Source: Gracilariopsis chorda
Lineage: Eukaryota; Rhodophyta; Florideophyceae; Gracilariales; Gracilariaceae
Assembly (NCBI GenBank): GCA_003194525.1
Contig: NBIV01000324.1
Location: 1-61,425 of the forward strand
Length of the DNA: 61,425 nucleotides
Reading direction: 5' to 3'
Position 1 is the stretch's first letter. Each line of letters opens with the position of its first letter. Both the position numbers and the translations under genes were made by a program. This document shows, piece by piece, positions 9,257-56,495 of the stretch. The notes beneath the pieces are model-generated. The model saw nothing but the letters and a program-made list of their open reading frames with translations, was not told the DNA's origin and did no database searches.

Positions 9257-9740
9257 TCAATCCTTAACCAATTGTATATTGAAGCACGGGATATGATCCT
9301 CCACTAATGCCTCTTCCAACCCATTGGTAATCCAGCGTGACATGGCATCGGCCGCGTTGTGCTTCAAACCCGGGCGGTATTGTACCTCATACTCACACTC
9401 GGATAGTCTTAACGTTCCTCTGGCTAGCTGTCTGGAAGCGTCCGCCAGGCTTATGAACCACCTTGAGGCGTCATTATCTGTCCGCAAGGTGAACGGCGTT
9501 CCATATAGGGAAGGACGGAGTATCAACATGCCCCATACAACCGCTAGAAATTCCTTCTGAGTAATGGTGTAGTTCTGCTCCGTTCTGGTGAGCACTTTAA
9601 TCTAGTAACGGATATAAAATTGCTCCCGTAGTCTTTGTGTTGCATTAGGCTGGATCCTACCTGAGCGGAGGATGCATCCGTATCAAGGATATAGTGATAA
9701 CTGAAATTGAGTAAAGCCAATACTGGTGGGGAGATAAGAC
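9257..9740 (-). pseudogene. ChrB RNase H domain
   Basis: The text starts with YILDTDASSAQVGSSLMQ (near 9700), which carries the first catalytic Asp. After a frame break it continues in frame 9595-9257 with NYTITQKEFLAVVWGM, the second block with the catalytic Glu, then LRTDNDASRWF with a further Asp, and ends with EYEVQYRPGLKHNAADAMSR. This order is diagnostic for the RNase H of gypsy elements, which removes the RNA template during reverse transcription. Confidence 0.8.
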
Positions 9741-10198
9741 CAGATTTCAGCTCCTAGAATGCTTGAAGCTCATTCCTCTCAAGGCATACAAACCGATGTT
9801 GTTGTCCTTTCTTCAGTTTTGTATTAAATGGAGCTGGCCTGCAGAACATCTTGCTAAAAAGTCGGTACAAAGTACACAGAGCAATAGTGGGACGTATATC
9901 CCTTTTTGAATAGGGAAGCGTGGCTTCCTGAACCCCTCTGGTACTCCTTTTGGCCACCTGGAGGAGACCTCAGCTTAAAATATGGCCCAGATAATCTACC
10001 TTTTGGTCAACGAACACGCATTTGCGTAACATTAGAGTCATCCCCGAATTCTTTAGAAGCTGGAGCACCGTTCGAAAGTGCCCGAAATGTTCTTCAACCG
10101 ATTCGGAATAAATGTATAGTTAATCTATGTACACCAATGCCGTTTGCCACCTTACCTTTGATAGGATTATATAGAGAGCCCTTTAGAACGTAACAGGC
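9741..10198 (-). pseudogene. ChrB reverse transcriptase, C-terminal part
   Basis: On the - strand from the CAGGC junction one reads a short bridge, then LVYID followed by a stop where the second catalytic Asp should be. Next comes SESVEEHFGHF and the LMLRKCVFVDQKVDYLGHIL block (thumb and connection), followed by several stops and frame changes. It is the direct continuation of the RT half at 21783-22080. Part of the decay consists of CAA or CAG codons turned into stops. Confidence 0.75.
10194..10198. repeat. Target-site duplication CAGGC (left of ChrA)
   Basis: Identical to 21783-21787. Five bases is the size expected for a Ty3/gypsy integrase. Confidence 0.9.
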
Positions 10199-10870
10199 TG
10201 TTAGGAATAGAGGTGCAGTGGTTAAGAATGGTTGGAAGTCGATGGTCATGATCCGAGTTGAAGTTCGGATCATCCATTGGGGTTAATATAAAGGGTGTAG
10301 CCTAGTTCTATCAGTGCTACTACTCAATGAGAAATCGTCCGAATGTAACGGTATTATGCTCGTTTTTCTCGTTGGCCTCCATATGTGGGTGGTTTACCGG
10401 GTTCAATGCCAGAACTAGTGGTTTGATGACTTGGTGAATTCCCCAGTTGATGATTTGTTCTATGAGTTGGCAAGATTCAGCAACAGACAGGGTCTCGATG
10501 ATCTGGCATATGAACCCAGGGTGCCCACGATGACTTGGCACGGATGTCTCGGGAATCTTCCATAGCCATTTTATCATTTCTGTACCGTTTGAATTGTTTG
10601 ACAACGTGGTTAGTAGGCAACTTGTATTTCGGAGCCAACTTTGTCCACGTGGTTGGTCGGGGCTTTTCTGACATAAGTATGTTGTCGTGTCATATTGACA
10701 GTATGTCACAAATGATGTCCACTCGGCTTTGAGGCCAGATAAAAATGTCAAATAGGTACCCGATCTCTTCAGTAGATCAAGTAGAATAAAACTAGGAAAG
10801 TAGACTCGTCAGAAGTGATGCTGGAGCCAACTTTTCTCAAACAAACGTAAAATAGTAAGTGAATCGAACT
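10199..10870 (-). repeat. ChrA 3' LTR
   Basis: 672 bp, aligned end to end with 21110-21782 (for example both carry tcgatggtcatgatccgag and cgttggcctccatatgtggg). It starts TGTTA on the + strand; the inner end has drifted from ACA to ACT. A purine-rich stretch (agggaaga on the - strand) lies just inside it, as expected for second-strand priming. Confidence 0.88.
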
Positions 10871-10977
10871 TCAATCTTCCCTAACTGTAGAGTCGACTGT
10901 ACTCATAAGTAATCATAACCAAGATTCCCTTAGACTCGCACAAACCCAAATTCCGGAGGAACTGGGAACAGGTCTCG

Positions 10978-11382
10978 TTAAGAGCCAGGTTCCAGGGTGA
11001 AGGGAACTTGACTTTCGCCCTCCAAGCGGTTCAAGATTTCACCAATTTCCTCCGTAAAACTTCGTTCACCAGTGAGGTGTCCATGACCTGCAACCATGTA
11101 GTAGAAAAGATGCATTTCAAATGTGTCGTCTAAAATCGTCAAAACTCCGCCATTGTAGTTGAAGGAAAGTCGGTGCTGACGTATTCCTATTTCGTCGGTG
11201 TTGCAAGGTCCACGATATTTGGCGAATAAAAAAGATACATGGCAAGCTGCCCGGTGAAGACATAGCCTAATTGCGTTGATGCTAGTGATTTCACCCATCC
11301 AGTTATATAGTGATGTTACACTGAGGTTGAAATTGTTGTAGAACTCTCTTGCACCTTGAATATTAGTGTTCTGATTCATCAT
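10978..11382 (-). CDS. ChrA extra ORF between chromodomain and 3' LTR (134 aa, unknown)
   Basis: It begins 24 bp after the chromodomain frame ends and lies in the position where env genes sit in retroviruses, but it has no signal peptide, membrane segment or glycoprotein features. No known family is recognised. The diverged fragment ChrD carries the same protein at 28370-28812, with matching blocks GAREFYNN, FNY, GVLT, FEM followed by LF, GHL, EILN and VPF; many differences are silent or conservative, which indicates past selection on the protein. In ChrD the match continues past the ChrA stop (DLFPVP), so the TAA at 10978 is probably a late truncation and the original frame ended at 10930. 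Function unknown. Confidence 0.7.
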   Translation of the reverse strand: MMNQNTNIQGAREFYNNFNLSVTSLYNWMGEITSINAIRLCLHRAACHVSFLFAKYRGPCNTDEIGIRQHRLSFNYNGGVLTILDDTFEMHLFYYMVAGHGHLTGERSFTEEIGEILNRLEGESQVPFTLEPGS

Positions 11383-11406
11383 GAAAGCTGGTTGATACTG
11401 GAATGC

Positions 11407-11856
11407 TTATTTTCTTCTCAGTAGGATTCCGTTCGTCTTCTTATACTGCTGGAGAAGTGCTTTGAAGTTCATGAGGTCTTTCTCTTTCATCCAAGTGTTC
11501 TCATGGCTTGGATATCCGAGCCATTTGACAAGAAATTCAAATCGTCTGGCTCTTCTTCTGTGGTTCACAATGCAATCTACTTCATACTCTTCTGTCTCAT
11601 CCTTCAATGTTACTGGGGTTTGATGAGCTATCCCTGGGAGAGTTGACTTCTCTTGTTGGTAAGGTTTGAGAACACTGGCATGGAACACATCATGAACCTT
11701 TGACTTCAGTGTATGGCTTAAGTCTAGACGAAATGCTACTCGGCCAAGTTTTTCTGTGATCTTGAATAGCCCACAATATCGGACTCGTAGCTTGGACTGC
11801 TTCCCCATATGGTCCGAATTGAGGTTTTGTGTGGACAACATGAATTTTTTGTCCAA
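11407..11856 (-). pseudogene. ChrA integrase end and chromodomain (149 codons open)
   Basis: The open piece starts in the integrase C-terminal region (RVRYCGLFKITEKLGRVAFRLDL, a GPF-like barrel, then HDVFHASVLKPY) and ends in a clear chromodomain: EYEVDCIVNHR, then FLVKWLGYPSHENTW, then the terminal helix. The aromatic residues of the usual methyl-lysine cage are only partly recognisable. In chromoviruses this domain steers integration toward heterochromatin. The upstream integrase is interrupted, so this frame is only the tail of pol. Confidence 0.85.
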
Positions 11857-12939: not shown

Positions 12940-13413
12940 TCACTTCAAGATTTTCAGCATGTTTTGGGTATCTTGAAAGCGAATCTGGGACAAAATTGGA
13001 TTCCCTTTGATCAGCTGAAAAGAAAAGTCAAATTCCACGAAGTTTTCCAGCCAGCGTACCTGTCTTTGACATAGGTTTGGCTGACATTCAAGATACTTCA
13101 AAGGGTAGTTGTCTGTGCATAGTGTGAACATTTGGCCATGAAAGTACACTCTCCATACTCCTAGCCTGTCTATGAGCCCCAAAAGTTCTCGCTCCTGGGC
13201 GGCATAACGTTTTTCTGCACTCTTCAATCTTGACGAAAATGCTACACGTCGTTTGACATTATTTTCGATCGGTTCCATGACAGCTCCAATGGCGTATTGA
13301 GAAGCGTCGGTAGTAACGATAATGAGCAGTTTTGGGTCAAAGTGTCTGAGTACTGGGGTTCTAGATATAGATTTCTTCAAAGACTCAAAACTCTCAATTT
13401 CTTCTTGATTCAA
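12940..13413 (-). pseudogene. ChrA RNase H domain (open fragment)
   Basis: A 157-codon frame holds the RT-RNase H connection (SFESLKKSISRTPVLRHFDP), the first RNase H block IIVTTDASQYAIGAVM with its Asp, AAQERELLGLIDRLGVWRVY with the Glu, CTDNYPLKYL with an Asp, and RQVRWLENFVEFDFSFQLIKG. The domain is therefore nearly complete at sequence level, though isolated from its neighbours by frame breaks. Confidence 0.85.
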
Positions 13414-13439
13414 TTCAAACTCGGATTTTCTGCAGAGTT

Positions 13440-14282
13440 TGGTAAAAGGTTTTGATGTTGCGGAACAGTTCTTAATAAGTCTTCGGAAGTAGTTTAGTTA
13501 CCTGAGAAATGCCTGGAGGTCGGTTTTGGTTTTCGGTGTGCATCAAGTCAAGATTGCATCAACTTACTGCGCCTCGATGGATATACCTTCTGCACTCACA
13601 ATTCGTCTTAGGTACCAGACTTTCTTCTTCATGAACTCACATTTTGCAAGCTTCCCATAAAGCTCGTGCTCGCGCAGTATGTCGAGTACACATCTGAGAT
13701 GCTTGAGATGTTCCTCTTCGTTTGTACGATAGAACAAAATGTGATCTAGATATACTAGAACGATGGTTTCTAAGTACTCTCGTAATACGATATTCATCAG
13801 GCTCATGAACGAGGCTGGCGCATTGGTACCACCGAAGGGAAATACAAGGAACTGAAAGTGACCATATCTTGTCCAAAAAGCTGTTCTAGGAGCCGACTGT
13901 TCAGAAAGCATTATTTGATGATAACCTGAACGGAGATCTGTTTTCGAGAATATTCTAGCTCCAATTCATTGATCGAATATGTCATCATTCTTGGGTATAG
14001 GATAGCTGTTCTTCACCGTTAGTTTGTTCAAAACTTGGCAGTCTATGCATAGCCTTAACGACCCATCTTTCTTCGCGACAAACTTTACGGGTGCATCCCA
14101 AGGACTCGAGCTCGGTTGGATTGTCGAAGTAGTTCGTTGAGCTGCCTACGCATTTCTGTAAGCTCTTTATCCGACATTCGATATACTCCTTTCTTTAGTG
14201 GTGTACATTTGAGTAGTAGGTCGATGTTAAAGTCTTGTTCTCGTTTCGGGCGTAGCCGTTTTGGGAGTTTATCGGGGAACAC
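13440..14282 (-). pseudogene. ChrA reverse transcriptase (YLDH at the active site)
   Basis: The N-terminal piece (14282-14085) has the LLLKCTPLKKGVYRMS linker and [10 protein letters not shown]. After a frameshifted stretch, frame 13911-13564 gives FLVFPFGGTNAPASF, then VLVYLDHILFYR, EHLKHLRCVLDIL and CEFMKKKVWYL. The catalytic YxDD motif reads YLDH, so the second metal-binding Asp is lost. Together with the frameshifts this shows a dead polymerase. Confidence 0.85.
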
Positions 14283-14782
14283 ATCTTTTCAATCAGTTAA
14301 CAACGAGTTTTGGCTGGGATGTTGTACTTTTGTTTCTTCTGGTTCATTTTGTGGTCGTACAAGAACGGCAGATACTGGTAACGTCTACTGGATAAATTTC
14401 TTGATAGCGTTGAATGTTTTCATATTGTTTTTTCTTTTCCATGTAGCGTGAATAACAACTTGTTCATTTTCGATGGGGAATGATATGACGTTTGTTCGAT
14501 AGTTGAAGTAAGGATGTATTGGTGGAGCCAGTTCTTTCCAAGGATTTCATCATATCCGTACAGTGGGCAGATGGCGAACCTTCTTTTTTCTTTGAGTGGT
14601 CCCATTTCCAATGTGACACCTTCCTTGTTAGTCTCTTCTAGGAGGGTAGTTGATCAATTCGCCATTTCTGCTTTGTAGTTCGTCTTGACTGTTGGAATTC
14701 CCACGCGTTTAACGAAAGATATAGAAAGGTACAGGTAAACACTGTTATTAGTATGGGTTAGAAATTAGTGTCGACACAGTAT

Positions 14783-14799
14783 TAGTGTGGATCACACTA
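14783..14799. repeat. Mar-1 left subterminal palindrome
   Basis: A 17-bp near-perfect palindrome, tagtgtggatcacacta, about 50 bp from the left end. The same motif recurs at 16649-16665, 16701-16717 and 16755-16771 near the right end. It is likely a transposase-binding site; that role is inferred. Confidence 0.75.
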
Positions 14800-14951
14800 T
14801 TTTCCGTGTGCCACTGGCGTTCTCTCACGATATTAGTGTAGACAAAGAGCTTCTTTTGGCAGCAACTGCAGCGTATATCACCATACGAATCCCAAGAGGC
14901 GCCAAAAACACTTCCAGAAATAGTCGCAAGACCAGTCGTGCATCTCCTACG

Positions 14952-16608
14952 ATGTCGCTATATGCCTCACCACTTCTGTCTGCCTTTCAACACATGGCCT
15001 CACATGCACAGAACCCGGCAGGTTCTCAACCAAAAGCACTATCACCGGCCAACAATAGTGACGATACTACTCAGGCCCCTGTCATTCCTTCTAATCCCAA
15101 CTGCATCAATAATGATAACATCAAAACCAAGCGATCCCCACAAAATGTATTGACTCATACAAACAGGGCAGTTATCGCCAGATGGATGATTGAAAACGCT
15201 GATATAGAAGGCGAATCTCATATTACTACTGGAGCAGTTACCAAGTTTCCACAGTGGTTTCGTGGGAGCTACAAGGCCAACGTGCAGCGTGCAAGCAGGT
15301 ATTGGAAACAGCGCAGTACGCTAGTGAATGGACACAACCGCACCAGTAAGAAAAGTGACATTTCGTTCGTTAAAGCAACTAAGAACGGGGTCAAGCGCCA
15401 CTACTGCAAGGCGAAAGCTGGAAGAGGTCGTCGTGTTTTGCCCTGGTTACAGGCGTTACAGAACGACATGTTTGATGAATTTAATCGCATGAGAAAGGCG
15501 GGGGGGAAGTTTAATGCCCGGCTGCTCCGATGATTAGCGTTGAACTTAATTGCAAGCGAGACGGAGGGTGTTTACAACAAGACATTGGTGGACTGTCGAA
15601 GTAATTGTCTGATATCCGACAGGATATCTTGTCCGTGGATCCAAACGTTCATGGAGAAATCGCATATCGTTAGCAGGGCACAGTGCAGGAAACTGATGGT
15701 TTCTCCTGCGAAGCAGGAACAAATAGAACGCGAAGTTGCCTACCATCTGGACCAGCTGGCCAGAGATTTTCAATCCAAGTCCCTTCGTGATGAAGACGTG
15801 TACAATGCAGATGAAACACACTTTTGTATAAATATGGACAATCATAAGACTCGCGCTTATTGGACACAAAGGTGTACGCTATGCTGATGTAGTGTCTGGT
15901 GACGACGGTATTACTATGATGGTGTTGATATCCGGAGGAGGAAACGCAGGACTTGAGACGCCGATGCTTATATTCAAGAACGTGGACAAGAATTACCCTA
16001 TACGGGGTCTGACGGACGATGTGCCCGGTGTGGTTTATCGAACCGGGCCTAGAGCGTGGATGGACAAACGTGTTTTCTTGGAATGGATACGAGAGAAAAG
16101 AGTGTTTAGACCTCTACCGAGCGGCCGTAAGCGAGTTCTTTTTATAGACAATGTGAATACGCATGCTCTAACCAATGACGTACGGGATGCATTGTCTCAG
16201 AGTAACACGGAAATTAGATTCTTTCCGTGTAATGCGACGCATTGAGTTCAGCCTGGGGACAGTTTTTTAATTCCGAAATTGAAGACATACTGGAGACATG
16301 AGTGGGATGATTTTAAGATGAGTATGCTACAGAATGGTATGTGGGTGGACGGACCACGTGCTTCTGGAAAGCTGTCTAATCCAGGCAAAAGACACTTCCT
16401 TAAGCTTGCTGCAAAATCTACCAGGGCTGTTAGTGCGATGCGTGACTCTGAAGGTGTTACATATGCGAGAAAAGCGATGATAAGATGCGGACTATCGTGT
16501 AACTTGAATGGGCAGTGGGAAGAACGGCAACTGTTCCCATCACTGCAAGCTATAATCGGCAAGTATAGGGAAAACGTTAATGGAGAAGTAGTTGGCAGTA
16601 GCACTTGA
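14952..16608 (+). pseudogene. Mar-1 DD36D transposase (two stops, one frameshift)
   Basis: The start at ATG 14952 is chosen because the following residues (M-S-L-Y-A-S-P) match the Mar-2 start M-E-F-H-A-S-P. An N-terminal region that may bind DNA (RAVIARWMIEN) is followed by a catalytic core with NADETHF (first Asp), LFIDNVNTHA (second Asp) and VQPGDSFLIPKLK (third Asp), with 36 residues between the last two. The reading is broken by an in-frame TGA at 15531, a frameshift near 15855 and an in-frame TGA at 16243; all three catalytic Asp are still present. It would cut and paste DNA between its terminal repeats. The pogo/DDE_1 assignment is by motif. Confidence 0.85.
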
Positions 16609-16648
16609 AGGCAGTCATTCTGTCAACAGTATTTGTGTGAGCATAAAT

Positions 16649-16771
16649 TAGTCTGGTCCACACTATTTGTTTCTACCTGGAATTAGTGTGGGTTAGAGTA
16701 TAGTGTGGTCCACACTAATTGTTGTGACCCCGCCCCAAATCGAGGCTTCTAAATTACTGTGGACCACACTA
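16649..16771. repeat. Mar-1 right subterminal palindromes (three copies)
   Basis: Copies at 16649-16665, 16701-16717 and 16755-16771 follow the pattern TAGTGTGGNCCACACTA. The 16701 copy matches the consensus exactly, and the other two each differ at one position. The array lies within about 140 bp of the right end and downstream of the transposase stop. Confidence 0.8.
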
Positions 16772-17072
16772 ATAACAGTGTTTACCTGTAGCTGAGTTCG
16801 GATCTGTTACCAGACAACGCTTTATATCTTTTTCCGTTTACGCGTACTTGCGCAAGTAACAGTTTTGGGGCGGGGGTTTCAAAGGGTGACGCGAGATTTG
16901 CCGTCAAAAGTCTGTATTTCTTGTGATCTATTTTGGTACTCGTATGCGGGTGTTCCGTGCGTTTTTCGACCTTGGCATTAGTCGTCGATATATTGGTTTT
17001 TTCTATGGGTACGAAGGTTTTGATTGGAACTGAAGATATGTCGGTCAGTTCCTCTTGGCGTTTTTTGGGCAA

Positions 17073-21109: not shown

Positions 21110-21782
21110 TGTTTGAAACGGAGGTGCAATGGTTGAAAATGGTTGGAAGTCGATGGTCATGATCCGAGTTGAAGCTTGGAGCATCCACCGGGGTTGATTT
21201 AGAGGGTTTAGCTCGGTTCTATCAATGCCACTAGTCAATGAGAAATCGTCTGAATTTAACGGTATTATGCATGGACTTCTCGTTGGCCTCCATATGTGGG
21301 TGGTTTACCGGGTTCAATGTCCGATCTAGCGGTTTGATGACTTGTCAATTCCCCAGGTGATGATTTGTTCCATGAGTTGGCAAGAATCAGCACCAGACAA
21401 GGTGTTGATGATCTAGCATGAACCTAGAGTGCCCATGATGACTTGGCACGGATGTTTCGGGAATCGTCCATGACCGTTCGATCATTGGTGTACCGTGTGA
21501 ATTTTTTGACATTGTTGTAAGTAGTAGGCGAATTGTATTTCGGAGCCAACTTTTTCTACGTGGTCGGTCAGGGCTTTTCTGACATAAGCATGTTGTTGTG
21601 TCATCTTGACAGTATGTCACAAAGGATGTGAACTCGGCCTTGAGGCCAGGTAAATATGTCAAATAAGTACCCGACCTCTTTCAGAGATCGAGTAGAACGG
21701 CAATAGGATAAGTATACACGTCAGAACTGATGCTGGAGCCAACTTTACTCAAAAAAAGGAAAAACAGTAACTAAATCTAACA
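21110..21782 (-). repeat. ChrA 5' LTR
   Basis: 673 bp, partner of 10199-10870. On the - strand it runs TGTTA to CA. The sequence next to its inner end on the - strand is tTGGTAGCATCCCAAG, with the TGG one base in from the LTR, as expected for a tRNA primer-binding site; I do not name the tRNA. Confidence 0.88.
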
Positions 21783-21787
21783 CAGGC
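21783..21787. repeat. Target-site duplication CAGGC (right of ChrA)
   Basis: Identical to 10194-10198. Confidence 0.9.
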
Positions 21788-28369: not shown

Positions 28370-28812
28370 TCATGCAAACGAGGATTCCAGGGGAACCGGA
28401 AACAAATCACATTCGGGCTCCAGTTCCAGAGCGAATGGCACTAGATTTTCGTCCTTAAAGGGGTTTAGGATTTCACAAACTTGCTCGGTGGAACTCCGTT
28501 TGCTCTTCAAATGACCATATCGCGCAAGAATATAGTGAAAGAGAAACATTTCGAAGCTTTATTCTAGAGTCGTCAGAACACCACTATCGTAGTTGAAGAA
28601 AATTCAGTGTCGCAGTATATCGTTCTCTTCGGTGTTGACTGGTCCACGATGCTAGATACTTGAGAAGGATATGTGGCTGGCTGCCCAGCAGAGCGTAGTC
28701 AGATGGATGCGATGCTGTTGATTTCATCAATCTACTTATGTAATGATCTTCCGCCAAGGTTGATATTGTTGTAGAATTCTCTTGCCCCTTCGATATCGGG
28801 GTTCTGATTCTC
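28370..28812 (-). pseudogene. ChrD copy of the extra 3' ORF
   Basis: Homologue of the 134-aa frame of ChrA. Matching blocks are GAREFYNN at the start, NSIASI, then after a one-base slip FFNY, GVLT, FEMFLFHYILARYGHL, EILNPF, VPF and DLFPVP to a TGA at 28370. It has several stops and one frameshift, and its first codon is GAG rather than ATG. Third-base differences dominate in the best-matching part, which supports the frame as formerly coding. Confidence 0.7.
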
Positions 28813-29330
28813 CGTTAGAGTTGCTTGATACTGGGATATCTAACTGTTTTGTGAAAGAAGACAATATGTCTTTTCATACTGCTGCATAACTGCTTCGCAA
28901 TAAGAATAGTCTCTCTCTTTTATCTCAGTGTTCTCATGACTTGGATTTCTAAATCATTTGAAAAGAAATTTAAATCGTCTAGCTTATCTCCTATAATTGC
29001 CAACATGTTCCCCTTTTCTACTCTTCTGTTCAAATCTTTGGCATTACTGGGGTCAAGTGAGTTGGCTCAATACAAATTGGATCTTCTCATCCGTAGTTTT
29101 TCAAGACACTAGCGTAGAACAGGTCATGAATTTTGGGTTTCAGTGAAGGGCTTAAGTCGAGACGAAATGATACTCGGCCAAGATGCTATGTGACCCTGAA
29201 CTTTCTACAGTATGGGTTTCAGAGTTTTTAATTCTGTCTCATGTAGTCTGAATTGACGTTGTTTGTGGACAGCATGACTATTTATCCAACTTTTAATTTG
29301 CAAAGGGATCGAGTCTTGTCGTCGTATGAA
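28813..29330 (-). pseudogene. ChrD chromodomain and integrase tail
   Basis: RARRFKFLFK, NPSHENTEIKE and MQQYEKT match the ChrA chromodomain (RARRFEFLVKW, YPSHENTWMKE, LQQYKKT). Upstream text near 29150-29300 matches the integrase tail (LSHTLK-like and DKKF-like pieces), with stops in every frame. Confidence 0.7.
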
Positions 29331-50858: not shown

Positions 50859-53800
50859 CTAACGTTCCATCGGGCGCGCAATATACTTCTTCAAACGACG
50901 GGCGTGTATTCCATGGCGAGTGTACCGGTTGTGTGGAGAAACCAACGTGTACCTTGGATGGTGAGCCCTCACCACACGACATGGGCCAAAGTACTTAGAG
51001 GAAAAAGCAGGCCATTTCACGGTACTGTTCAGGGCCTTTCCACGAGCCACAAGGACCAGATCACCGACTTCAAACTTCGTAATGGAGACTGCATCGACTT
51101 CCTTCAAAGGCCTCTGAGCAGAACGTTTAGCTCTATGATTCCTTGATGCGAGCAGCTCCACTGAGCGGAACCGGTCGGAGGAGTCCCCAACTCGTGCCAC
51201 GACACCACCTTCATCGGAGGTCATACGTGGTTTCACACCGTAAAGCAACTCGAACGGAGAGATCCCACTGCCAAGATGTCTGCGCCGGTATCCGTACAGA
51301 ACCGAAGGCGGGTGTTCGTCCCAACTTGAACGATTATCCAGAGCTTTCTTTCCTATTGCTCTTTTCAGAGTACCAACCATCCTTTCAGCTCGGCCATTGG
51401 ACGTGGGGGCGTACGCCAAGACCGTTTTCCATTTGATACCATGGTCCTCCATGAATGAGACGAGCGATTTAGAAGTGAAGCATGTAGCATTGTCCGACAC
51501 CACGATACGAGGGAAACCAAACACGGCAATGATCTCTTTTCTCACGAAGTCTATGACCTCCTGTGACGTAGACCATTTTGTCGCTACGGCAAGTGGCCAA
51601 CCAGTCAAATGCTCAACACAAACCAGAATGAAACGGTTTCCGAATTCGGTAGTCGGAAGAGGACCTGCAAAATCAATCGAGAAAACGTCAAAGAGAGAGG
51701 AAATGGGAGTCCGAAGGTTGCTGTAGTACCTTGGTAGTGGTGCGAGTCTCTGGCATTCGTCACAACTCTTGACGTAGTTGTCGATATCTTCATGCATAGT
51801 GGGCCACCAGTATCTCTCAGTGATGAACTTCCTTGTAGTCTTCAAATCCCAGTGTCCAATCTCATCATGAAATGATTTGATAATGATCTGTCGCCGACCA
51901 ATAACAGGAACAACTCGCAGTGCGTTTGGGATCCTTCTGAATAATTTTCCTTCCCAGACCAGGAATTTCTTCGCATTTCGTCGGATTGCTTGGCGGAGAC
52001 GTGCATCAGTCTCATCTGTAAGCAGACCACACAAGAAGCGCGCAATGTTTGCGTCGTATGGTTCAAGACCGGAGAAGTCGTCAGGCTCAACAGCCATACA
52101 AGCAAGGTCGCCTTCATCTTCTAACGGCTCGACCTCGTCTCCGTGAACTATCCTTGACAGATAATCTGCTGCGCCATTCTCCTTGCCTGCGCGATACACT
52201 ATTTCAAAGTCATACTCGGCCAGAAAGTCTAGCCAGCGAGCTAAGCGTCCATTTATATCGCGCTCCTGAAATGCATATTGTAAAGCCATATGGTCCGTGA
52301 TTACCTTGAATGGAAAAGACGAGAGTAGATACAATCTGAACTTCTTGAGAGCAAAGATAACTGCCAATGCTTCTCTTTCACATGCCGAGTAGTTCTTTTC
52401 CGCAGCGGTCATAGTACGACTGGCAAACTGCAGAGGATGTATCTTCCCATCTTCCTTTTTCTGAGAGAGAACTGCGCCGAGTGAAACACTAGAGGCGTCC
52501 GTTTCCACAATGAAAGGCTGCTCGAAGTTTGGAAATGAAAGTAGTGGAGGCTCAGTCATTTTTTTCTTCAGACCGTGGAAAGCTTCTAGCATCTCTCCGG
52601 TCCAACGCAGCTTCTTATTCCCGGAGGTAGCACTGTGAAGCACGGCGGAGGTCTCAGCAAAGGTTCTGATGAACCTTCGATAGTATCCGGCTAGTCCCAG
52701 AAAAGATCGTAGTTCCGTAGTGGTGGCAGGAATTGGGGCATCCTGGATCTTAGCCATCTTCTCCTGGTCCACGTGCAATCCATCTCCGTTGATGACATGG
52801 CCTAGAAGAGACACCTCCGATGGTGCAAAGAAACATTTGGACAGTTTGAGCTTCAATCCATGCTTCGCAATCCGACCAATCACAGCGTTCAAGTGAATCA
52901 CGTGCTCTCTGAGGCTTCTTGAGAATATGAAAACGTCATCAATGTAAACCCGAACGAATGGAAGTCCTCTTAGCACATGATCCATCATCCGTTGAAAGGT
53001 GGAAGGGGCATTCATGAGACCAAATGGCATGACTTCGAACATGAAAGTTCCGTATCTGCACACAAAGGTCGTCATCTCTTTGCAATCCTCAGACATCTTG
53101 ACTTGCCAGTATCCAGAGAACAGGTCGAGCGTAGTGAAGACACAGCAACCTCCAAGTTCCTCAAAGATCTCTTCCATGCGTGGCAAAGGCCAGCGGTCAG
53201 CTTTCATGACTCTGTTCAGCTCTCTGTAATCGACACAAAACCTTGCGCTTCCATCTTTCTTCGAGGCAATGACAATTGGAAACGACCACGCAGAGGCTGA
53301 AGGGGTAATGATACCAGCTTCGAGAAGAAGATCAATCTCCTTGCGTACGAACTCGTTGTGCTTCGGCGACATCCTCCTGGCTCTGAAGTAGATTGGTTTG
53401 TCAACTGTCAACTCGAAAGAGTGAGAAACAGTCACATCGGCTGGGCGTAAGTCTTTCAATGACCAAGCGATTACATTCGAGTCCTTCAGACAAGAAACCA
53501 AGTCGTCTCTTTCATCCTCTGAAATGTGCGAGAGTTTTGAAAAGAGTAACTTCTCGTGCTGCTCATCAGTAGTGATGTCCAATTGCGGCATCATTTCGGG
53601 AGTCTCGCCATGGTTCTTTTCTGTTAGAGCAACCATGAGTTGTTCGTCATTTTTAGAAGCAGTATCAGAGTCAATAGCGGCGTCAGAATCTGAAGTGAAG
53701 TCGTCGCTATCCGTCTGGAAACCCTCTTCGTATGAAATCTCGACGCGAGCATAGTCAAAGCCAAGTGTTACTCTTTTTCCATCAATATGCATCTTCACGT

Positions 53801-55442
53801 GCTGATTTCCGAGGTCAAGGCAGGCTTGTAACGATTCAAGTGTTGGACAACCCACAATGATGTCGAATGGCGGACCATCAATAACAAGAAAGTCTAATGG
53901 AACGGAGACGCCCCTGAAGGATATAGGGATATCGTATAGTATTCCTCTGCACACGGCGCTCTGTCCATTGGCAACAGTTATCTTCTTCGTCGTATGCTTG
54001 GGTTCCAGTGCTAGCCTGTCACACAGCTTGGTTGACATAAGGTTTGGAACAGCTCCAGAGTCGAGCAAAGCTTCAGTCTCAGTCCCATATATCATAACGT
54101 GGACCGCCTTAAGACGTCTAGGCTGCTTACCCACTGGCCCAACAAAAGGGCGTCGAACATTGCTTTTGCGACCGATGAGCTTACGAATCTCTTTCTTCGC
54201 ATCATCTGCGTCTCCTCTGATAAGTTGTCCAAAGGTTAGTCCGGAAGAGGCATTCGCGAGCTCAGTGAGAACGTTATATTTGCTTGCATGGTCTTGAAGA
54301 CTCTGCTTCTTCGACTTCCTCTGTTTCGGCTTCTTGACTTTCTGTTCATGAACCTTAGGTCTCCGAACTCTCTCTTCGTATCTTGTTGGATTGAGCAAAA
54401 GCGGGATGGGTGCACCACCGTCTGAACGGCGCTGTTTGGGCAACGCTTCACCGTCAGCACTTCTCTTGGTTGTGGCGACTACATCAGCATTCCCGGCGTT
54501 TTCGGTGACAATTGATACGGGGTCGGATCCTTTCTGAAGATTAGATGCTGACTCTTTAGATTCCTCATTGGCATCCCATACTTTGCGGGTCTCTTCGGGT
54601 CGGATTCTTCGCCAACAAGTGATCTCTGAGTGTCCAATTTTCCCACAACGCGGGCATCGCGTATCTCGGTGCGGATTAGAGTCACATTGTGAGGCATAAT
54701 GTCCGGGCTTCTTGCAGTATGAACAAACCTTTTCGTAGTCTCGACGCTCCGTCTGTGTCTTCTTAACCATTAATGACAGCTGAGCAAACTGCTCAGAGAG
54801 TTTGTCGACCTTAGACTCCAAAGCATGAGAGATAGTTTCTTCAAAAGACCTGTGGTTTTGGACAATACGCTTAGGTGGGGTACTTAATGAAACGTAGTTC
54901 CCCATTGCTTTCCGGGCAGCATCGAAGGCTTTCACTTGAACCTTCAACTCATCATAATCATCAGCGCCACGGAAAACAACGAACTGGGCTAGATCAGCGT
55001 ATTCCATTACAGCTTTCTTCAAGAGACCAAACTTAGCCTTAGCGTTGAATCCTGCCTGTAAGAAGAGGTTGTCCATATAGGTCAAGGAACCAACCAAGTC
55101 TGCATAATCCAATTTAGCAGAAATTGCAAGGCGTATATCTTCCTCAGGCTCCTCGGCTTTTCCAAAACGATCGATGAAAGCTTGCTTAACGGAGCGGTAG
55201 TCCTTTGCTTCTTCCGAAAGTGAACCATTAACAGCATAAGAATCATAGTAGAACTCAAAGGCTTTGTTCTCAAGGAAACCAAGCAACTCAAGTGCCATGT
55301 CCTCGTCAGTCCTTCCTCTCATCGCAACATTCTCAAAGTAAAAGAAGAATTTTAAGACGTCAATAGAAGAACCGTCATAAGAGGTAAATGCAGCGTTAGA
55401 GTCAGAAGAGCTCCCTCCTCGAGAGTACCATGTGGGCGCCAT
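50859..55442 (-). CDS. GypF gag-pol polyprotein, 1527 aa, single frame
   Basis: I choose ATG 55442 (M-A-P-T-W-Y), 12 bases before the end of the 5' LTR. The frame is also open upstream to 55673, but that part lies in the LTR and is not kept in related LTRs. Domains: gag capsid region; two CCHC knuckles (240-253 and 263-276); a basic linker; retropepsin with D461-S-G; RT with FCVDYRELN and YIDD (833-836); RNase H with D982; integrase zinc domain H1192, H1197, C1227, C1230; catalytic D1257, D1317, E1353 (35 residues between the last two); a GPY/F-like tail (YFGPCRVV). Everything needed for reverse transcription and integration is present. Gag and pol are fused without frameshift or stop, so the ratio of Gag to Pol must be set some other way. 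Confidence 0.95.
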   Translation of the reverse strand: MAPTWYSRGGSSSDSNAAFTSYDGSSIDVLKFFFYFENVAMRGRTDEDMALELLGFLENKAFEFYYDSYAVNGSLSEEAKDYRSVKQAFIDRFGKAEEPEEDIRLAISAKLDYADLVGSLTYMDNLFLQAGFNAKAKFGLLKKAVMEYADLAQFVVFRGADDYDELKVQVKAFDAARKAMGNYVSLSTPPKRIVQNHRSFEETISHALESKVDKLSEQFAQLSLMVKKTQTERRDYEKVCSYCKKPGHYASQCDSNPHRDTRCPRCGKIGHSEITCWRRIRPEETRKVWDANEESKESASNLQKGSDPVSIVTENAGNADVVATTKRSADGEALPKQRRSDGGAPIPLLLNPTRYEERVRRPKVHEQKVKKPKQRKSKKQSLQDHASKYNVLTELANASSGLTFGQLIRGDADDAKKEIRKLIGRKSNVRRPFVGPVGKQPRRLKAVHVMIYGTETEALLDSGAVPNLMSTKLCDRLALEPKHTTKKITVANGQSAVCRGILYDIPISFRGVSVPLDFLVIDGPPFDIIVGCPTLESLQACLDLGNQHVKMHIDGKRVTLGFDYARVEISYEEGFQTDSDDFTSDSDAAIDSDTASKNDEQLMVALTEKNHGETPEMMPQLDITTDEQHEKLLFSKLSHISEDERDDLVSCLKDSNVIAWSLKDLRPADVTVSHSFELTVDKPIYFRARRMSPKHNEFVRKEIDLLLEAGIITPSASAWSFPIVIASKKDGSARFCVDYRELNRVMKADRWPLPRMEEIFEELGGCCVFTTLDLFSGYWQVKMSEDCKEMTTFVCRYGTFMFEVMPFGLMNAPSTFQRMMDHVLRGLPFVRVYIDDVFIFSRSLREHVIHLNAVIGRIAKHGLKLKLSKCFFAPSEVSLLGHVINGDGLHVDQEKMAKIQDAPIPATTTELRSFLGLAGYYRRFIRTFAETSAVLHSATSGNKKLRWTGEMLEAFHGLKKKMTEPPLLSFPNFEQPFIVETDASSVSLGAVLSQKKEDGKIHPLQFASRTMTAAEKNYSACEREALAVIFALKKFRLYLLSSFPFKVITDHMALQYAFQERDINGRLARWLDFLAEYDFEIVYRAGKENGAADYLSRIVHGDEVEPLEDEGDLACMAVEPDDFSGLEPYDANIARFLCGLLTDETDARLRQAIRRNAKKFLVWEGKLFRRIPNALRVVPVIGRRQIIIKSFHDEIGHWDLKTTRKFITERYWWPTMHEDIDNYVKSCDECQRLAPLPRYYSNLRTPISSLFDVFSIDFAGPLPTTEFGNRFILVCVEHLTGWPLAVATKWSTSQEVIDFVRKEIIAVFGFPRIVVSDNATCFTSKSLVSFMEDHGIKWKTVLAYAPTSNGRAERMVGTLKRAIGKKALDNRSSWDEHPPSVLYGYRRRHLGSGISPFELLYGVKPRMTSDEGGVVARVGDSSDRFRSVELLASRNHRAKRSAQRPLKEVDAVSITKFEVGDLVLVARGKALNSTVKWPAFSSKYFGPCRVVRAHHPRYTLVSPHNRYTRHGIHARRLKKYIARPMER
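55410..55430 (-). other. GypF primer-binding site
   Basis: TGGTACTCTCGAGGAGGGAG immediately follows the 5' LTR; the leading TGG pairs with the CCA end of a tRNA. The tRNA is not identified. The site lies inside the gag frame and would be translated as W-Y-S-R-G-G. Confidence 0.8.
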
Positions 55443-56495
55443 CACGAGACGGTGACGCAGGGGGGCCGAAAAGTTGTAATAATAAAAGCCAAAAGGGTGC
55501 TGTTCGTAGCTAAAAGCCCCAAAACAAGTTGAAAACAGTGGGATCAAAAGAACTAAACCCACTCGATGAAATAAAAACAACACTAGGGAGAGCATGAGGC
55601 TCAATCCCCAAATAAAACTTCTTAACTTCTTTGTTGAAACGGCGCGCAACCCAAGAATTATGTCAAGGATCACTAAGGGTCAGACTCTCGGCTTCCGGTC
55701 AGACACTCCGGATGTGAAGTGGATTCTGCAGCCTACCTACCTCTGCACTAACCAGAAGCAGGCGCATACAATCCTTACAGGGCTTCCCGAGGAGAGCTAC
55801 TAACAGCGGGATATGCTTTCACTCTATACCCAAGCTGGCCCTTTGCAGGAAAGGTTGCACGGCACGTCGCCTGCGGATAGCTTCCAGTCAAGTACTTCCG
55901 TCCGGAAATCCCCAGGTCTTTCGACCGACACCGTTATCCGAGCAGAGCTCCGGTGGGGCTCACAGACGACAGAAACACCTTTGGTACACACTACCCGTCT
56001 CCCGTCCACGCCTAAGGCGCTTCAACCGGTCTTAGCGACGGTACTTCCCCACCCTATTGGACAACTAGCAGCACACGCCTCACTAGAAGCCCTTTATCCA
56101 GTGGCTAACGCCTCACTGGTTGTTGATGATAGTTGAAGTGGCTGAAGGTTGATAGGGGGTGGGGCTTAGATGTTGGTCGATTGTTGAGGTGAGTTCAGAC
56201 CGAAGTCCGAAGCTCAGAACCTCTTTTTATAGTGTTTAGAGGCACTACAAACGAGCCAAATACGCATTTCTACTTGCTAGTTACTCATGTGTGCGTCTAG
56301 GTTACTCCATTGGCTTCTAGAGACCTCTGGAGCTGCACAATAACCAATAATAAAGCGACAATTTGCGCCAGCATCACTAAAATACTGTAGTCTTTGCCGG
56401 GCCAACAAAGCGTGCAATGTGCTAGACACTACTGGAACATTCTGCACGTGTGTTCCAGCAATGTCTAGCACATTCCGCAACATTAGTGACCGACA
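55431..56495 (-). repeat. GypF 5' LTR
   Basis: 1065 bp. Its last 12 bases encode the first four codons of gag. Differences from the 3' LTR are one extra A in an A-run and eight substitutions. Confidence 0.95.
56223..56231 (-). promoter_or_regulatory. GypF LTR TATA box
   Basis: TATAAAAAG on the - strand, about 780 bases upstream of the gag ATG. It is the only clear TATA-like box in the LTR and is present in both copies. It would start a transcript with a long leader within the LTR. Confidence 0.6.

Follow-up and report, generated by a model that had tools for sequence, protein, structure and literature searches.

Which gene, if any, lies between pol and the 3' long terminal repeat (LTR) of ChrA, a chromodomain Ty3/Gypsy element of the red alga Gracilariopsis chorda? 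The element occupies part of contig NBIV01000324.1 (assembly GCA_003194525.1), whose 61,425 nucleotides were analyzed as a whole and are called the window here. A sequence-only reading of the window had placed a 134-codon open reading frame (ORF) in the env position of ChrA and proposed that this lineage once carried an additional gene. We find that the ORF indeed sits between pol and the 3' LTR, with its stop within about 60 bases of the purine-rich tract and LTR, and that it represents a true third gene carried by a Gracilariopsis chromovirus, with a product of about 150 residues. The figure of 134 codons describes the ChrA copy, because an in-frame TAA cuts that copy at codon 134, but not the gene, which spans 149 codons in relatives. 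There the frame continues beyond the ChrA stop, as the conservation reported for that region had suggested, and terminates in ...FVRV-stop, the end site being TAA in 25 and TGA in one of 29 aligned copies.

We searched the genome (91.3 Mb in 1081 contigs) for these relatives, and coined the labels A, B, B' and C for the lineages discussed below, with ChrA belonging to A. At the DNA level, the window itself and at least 39 further matches were recovered at 77-84% identity (40 of 87 candidates scored). At the protein level, where 150 of 211 candidates were scored, 42 of the scored matches, window included, cover at least 147 of the 149 residues, and 14 of these 42 are free of stop codons. The fragment ChrD, elsewhere in the window, encodes the same protein at 28370-28812, as had been proposed, though in decayed form: about 39 + 107 residues survive in two frames with several stops, and they are 45-64% identical to 12 uninterrupted lineage A queries. 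Separately, the ChrD stretch (window 28370-28870) was listed as 100% identical to contig C787:6762-7263, so this sequence may have been duplicated recently, or the assembly may include a second haplotype.

Selection on the protein was assessed in an alignment of 29 lineage A copies, made up of 20 of the 40 DNA matches and nine from the protein search, all nine stop-free. Because the added copies were chosen for being stop-free, the stop counts carry a bias that affects codon-position counts far less. The copies form two subfamilies, A1 (n = 19) and A2 (n = 10), and near-fixed differences between these number 10, 1 and 29 at first, second and third codon positions. Singleton differences, which mostly postdate insertion, are spread evenly (129/126/127), and shared differences number 109/73/120. 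With the 20 DNA-picked copies only, near-fixed differences amount to 7/1/25 for the ORF; the corresponding counts are 2/2/13 for the chromodomain end of pol and 8/4/6 for non-coding DNA on the 3' side.

The ratio of nonsynonymous to synonymous substitution rates (dN/dS) averages 0.247 over the 190 A1 x A2 pairs in the frame of the extra ORF (frame 0) and 0.23 when the DNA-picked copies alone are used, in either case well below 1. The chromodomain end of pol gives 0.38 (17 of 20 copies; L015, L021 and L022 were excluded because their coverage or identity was low), and a 3' non-coding stretch of 240 columns gives 1.00, 0.79 and 0.68 in its three frames. No other frame in the same DNA is better conserved: between A1 and A2 the remaining sense frames score 0.88 and 1.47 and the antisense frames 0.82, 0.41 and 1.66, the frame at 0.41 carrying a mean of 9.6 stops per gap-free copy. 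Frame 0 is the most open of the six, with a mean of 0.95 stops per gap-free copy versus 4.1-9.6, as counted in the 19 of 29 copies that lack gaps, eight of which had been chosen for being stop-free. Within A1 alone, dN/dS reaches 0.59 and the shared differences spread almost evenly over the codon positions (78/63/72), as expected of copies that decayed after insertion. The extra-ORF protein was thus under purifying selection while lineage A was active, and between A1 and A2 this selection was no weaker than the selection acting on the end of pol. Third-position bias and dN/dS between the subfamilies uphold the proposal of an additional gene, and selection on the protein implies that its product once had a job.

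The start codon is ATG in 27 of the 29 copies. The linker that separates it from the pol stop measures 27 nt in 23 copies, 26 nt in five and 24 nt in one. A 1-nt linker deletion common to L013, L015, L017 and L022 shifts the ORF out of the pol frame, which favors a separate start over read-through and disfavors read-through of the pol stop as the sole expression route in lineage A.

Comparisons beyond lineage A show that the protein belongs to a domain family present in at least four Ty3/Gypsy lineages (A, B, B' and C) of the G. chorda genome. The intact L024 protein also matches inside other, often long, open frames at 21-25% identity. In lineage B, as represented on contig C157 (L033), the domain forms the C-terminal 154 residues of an open Pol frame with reverse transcriptase (RT), RNase H and integrase, a frame in which no chromodomain was detected. 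Intact lineage B insertions exist, and the LTRs of the C157 insertion (L033 4451-6826 and L060 710-3085) are 99.96% identical over 2376 bp, from which we take it that lineage B moved recently. Lineage B' (L037-L043) is 42-50% identical to B within the domain and likewise fused to Pol; L037-L040 are open from the integrase end (judged by eye) through the domain with no stop between, and L041-L043 have stops within or ahead of it. Open frames of B' reach 1634 residues, and a domain homologue terminates an open frame of 2145 residues. In lineage C, the chromodomain of L044 (Pfam, expectation value (E) 1.3e-9) ends in one frame and the ATG of the domain overlaps the pol stop; by eye, L045 is arranged alike. 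There are, then, two arrangements: in the chromoviruses A and C the domain is a separate ORF, in B and B' it is the in-frame tail of Pol; and in all loci read the domain directly follows the integrase/chromodomain region. As to the lineage B LTR itself, it contains a 152-residue antisense frame (L033 5610-6068) that also occurs downstream in L034, and its middle (about L033 4587-5500) is unmatched in L034, which would fit the swapping of a segment.

The shared domain spans about 130 residues at the Pol-distal end, with few gaps in an alignment of all lineages. Single-sequence matches link A to B at E values down to 5.6e-11 (reciprocal 1.2e-10), and profile pairs compared with hhalign give E 9.3e-11 for A-B (132 columns), 5.3e-18 for B-C and 3.5e-6 for A-C. 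Among 4824 shuffled or reversed controls searched with hmmsearch, the best E was 0.041 for the A profile, 0.037 for B and 0.056 for C. The A profile recovers nine of nine B/B' members (E 9.5e-13 to 8.8e-4), and the B profile recovers all three C members and, with E no higher than 3.7e-9, every one of the 12 A members except L056 (0.31). With the C profile, 11 of 12 A members score 0.00036 to 0.53, a range that overlaps the best control, so the relation of A to C rests mainly on B as a bridge.

RT comparisons give a different grouping from the domain. By RT identity, B, B' and an element at window 50859-55679 form a group, with 62-64% between them, and C is 44-55% identical to A versus 37-41% to this group. 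By domain identity, C is 16-27% identical to B/B' versus 12-18% to A. That C is nearer A by RT and nearer B by domain may mean that the domain was exchanged between lineages or that A changed faster, three lineage groups without an outgroup being compatible with both. The element at 50859-55679 has an uninterrupted Gag-Pol frame of 1606 residues of the B-clade type and lacks the extra domain, which suggests that the module was gained or lost inside the B-clade group. Domain dN/dS is 0.39-0.52 for pairs within B and B', on few differences (the four between L033 and L034 include none that is synonymous), and 0.52 for C, so that selection is well shown only for A.

The sequence-only reading had recognized no domain in the protein, and profile searches agree. 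Pfam gave no credible match to any of 24 members (the top hit, an unrelated family, had E 0.034), nor did NCBIfam to the extra-ORF protein, PHROGs (best E 0.012, a family of unknown function) or PDB profiles (best E 0.3). No relative outside G. chorda was found among 5.8 billion proteins, and none in the viral contigs scanned, within searches limited by protein length windows and shared 5-residue words and with G. chorda as the only red-algal genome scanned. Of 689 candidates in the protein collection, four matched the family profile with an E no higher than 0.1, all of them hypothetical proteins of G. chorda. AlphaFold models built from five sequences are mostly helical and of low confidence (mean predicted local distance difference test scores of 45 and 53).

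What did the product do? Our best explanation, to which we assign a probability of roughly 45%, is that the third gene belongs to a Pol-distal module family and encodes a putative non-enzymatic partner of integrase or of the pre-integration complex, as the free and the fused arrangements both deliver the domain with integrase. In A and C, a ribosome finishing pol would re-initiate at the nearby ATG and yield small amounts of the protein; in B and B', the domain would travel as an integrase tail or be cut off by the protease. As a partner, it might serve in tethering, nuclear entry or target choice. Several points weigh against this explanation. Both structure models are of low confidence. The B/B' protease may free the domain, so that fusion is no proof of acting with integrase; A and C possess a chromodomain as it is, which leaves no obvious need for a second targeting part; and the open B-clade Pol in the window does without the domain, which is therefore dispensable for some elements. 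As for expression, the linker keeps the pol frame in 24 of 29 lineage A copies and would allow occasional read-through of the stop, and a spliced message could replace re-initiation. A bolder version, which we regard as unlikely, makes the domain the founding example of a class of modules that accompany integrase for targeting or tethering, so far seen in this red alga only. In B/B' it would occupy the place at the end of Pol where chromoviruses have their chromodomain, in A/C, which kept the chromodomain, it would act as a free partner, and it was possibly exchanged between lineages.

Nearly as likely as a partnership with integrase, and a serious if tentative candidate, is a regulatory or defense-blocking accessory protein that acts away from integrase, by RNA or DNA binding or by silencing suppression, and for which the site after pol is merely convenient. 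TRP28 of the plant element Retand, a product of the corresponding region in a different Gypsy lineage, is described as a presumed DNA-binding and regulatory protein (PMC11963269), and the low conservation of the domain between lineages (12-27% among A, B/B' and C) would suit conflict with the host. Against such a role speak the strong purifying selection in A and the fact that two lineages have the domain fused directly to the Pol end. Net charge does not exceed zero in 22 of 24 members (the remaining two have +1 and +3), which disfavors simple nucleic-acid binding. The mostly helical, low-confidence models would fit a structural, capsid- or nucleocapsid-like helper of Gag origin, but the domain stands after integrase rather than before protease, and no Gag, capsid or zinc-knuckle match was found, in searches that involved no profile comparison with the Gag part of the window's open element; we consider this origin improbable. 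An envelope-like protein is what the location between pol and the 3' LTR would call to mind. We rejected it as very improbable on three grounds, the first two from hydropathy and motif counts: the 24 members lack a recognizable membrane segment or strongly hydrophobic stretch (the highest 19-residue mean is 1.67 in one and 0.81-1.59 in the other 23), they carry 0-4 N-glycosylation motifs each, and B and B' have the domain in one continuous frame with Pol. That the ORF is a chance open frame in old repeats, with no gene behind it, could be argued from the broken state of both the ChrA and the ChrD copy, but third-position bias and dN/dS refute it; 14 of the 42 near-full-length matches are stop-free and a homologue ends the 2145-residue open frame, leaving chance with virtually no credibility.

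The element that houses the ORF in the window is laid out in Table 1. ChrA has the features of a chromovirus, namely a C-terminal chromodomain, a Gypsy-type RT and RNase H upstream, and LTRs with a short target duplication, an assignment based on domains and LTRs, with RTs compared among elements of the G. chorda genome. Its LTRs are identical at 574 of 676 aligned positions (85%), and its RT/RNase H stretch shares 34% identity across 373 residues with the open Pol of the window, itself a match to RVT_1 and RT_RNaseH. Nested within ChrA is a DNA transposon (window 14730-16790, inverted ends by eye) with a broken transposase (Pfam DDE_1, E 1.7e-10, in 15832-16242). A distant RT match (31% over 192 residues) abuts the end of the ChrA 3' LTR at window 9625-10197, and ChrA may therefore sit inside another retroelement.

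Table 1. Positions in the window of ChrA, its parts and the extra ORF with its decayed copy.
Feature	Position	Strand	Remarks
ChrA, chromodomain Ty3/Gypsy element	21782 to 10199	minus	
5' LTR of ChrA	21110..21782	minus	673 bp
3' LTR of ChrA	10199..10870	minus	672 bp
Target-site duplication GCCTG, 5' side of ChrA	21783..21787	minus	by eye
Target-site duplication GCCTG, 3' side of ChrA	10194..10198	minus	by eye
RT + RNase H stretch of ChrA, decayed	13024..14130	minus	tblastn, L009 3871-4977
Tf2-1-like SH3 (integrase C-terminal) domain	11656..11841	minus	Pfam PF24626, E 1.7e-15, P0002 residues 7-68
Chromodomain, end of ChrA Pol	11437..11586	minus	Pfam PF00385, E 8.8e-16, P0002 residues 92-141
pol stop codon of ChrA, TAA	11407..11409	minus	TAA in 22/29, TGA in 2/29 aligned copies
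Linker, pol stop to ATG of extra ORF	11380..11406	minus	27 nt in ChrA
Extra ORF downstream of pol, 149 codons + TAA	10930..11379	minus	ATG at 11379, native stop 10930-10932
In-frame TAA cutting the ChrA extra ORF at codon 134	10978..10980	minus	
Purine-rich tract preceding the 3' LTR	10871..10882	minus	by eye
Decayed extra-ORF copy in ChrD	28373..28809	minus	

Additional ORFs and domains are already known in rotifer, plant, fungal and oomycete elements, and none of the sources cited here describes the Pol-distal family. In bdelloid rotifers, LTR retrotransposons have ORF3 products that are described as GDSL esterases, DEDDy exonucleases, and coiled-coil or membrane proteins (PMC5408684). As in the algal elements, a third ORF that is not always an envelope is common to different retroelement lineages of one host; unlike those products, the algal protein has no credible family match (neither GDSL nor DEDDy among 24 members) and is sometimes fused to Pol. 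Retand resembles ChrA in that TRP28, too, is an extra protein of unknown function that is conserved and encoded between pol and the 3' LTR (PMC11963269). By the description given there, however, TRP28 is antisense and Retand is not a chromovirus, whereas the algal ORF is sense, as selection and the open frame lie on the pol strand, and is accompanied by a chromodomain. The Tcn1-like chromoviruses of fungi and plants, again likened by description, are chromodomain Gypsy elements, and an additional ORF without known function is named in a figure legend (PMC2864245); the same source reports Tcn1-like elements as absent from the red algae it examined. Chronos and Archon, Ty3/Gypsy elements of oomycetes, have also gained an extra domain, but theirs is described as an RNase H (PMC5348765) and the algal protein has no RNase H match. 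In the open-licence literature searched, we found no description of the domain family or of an extra ORF in red-algal Gypsy elements.

The extra genes of LTR retrotransposons reveal what these elements need beyond copying and integration. In G. chorda, one protein family occurs in four lineages of a single genome, free in some and fused to Pol in others, which makes a natural swap with which to probe cooperation with integrase.
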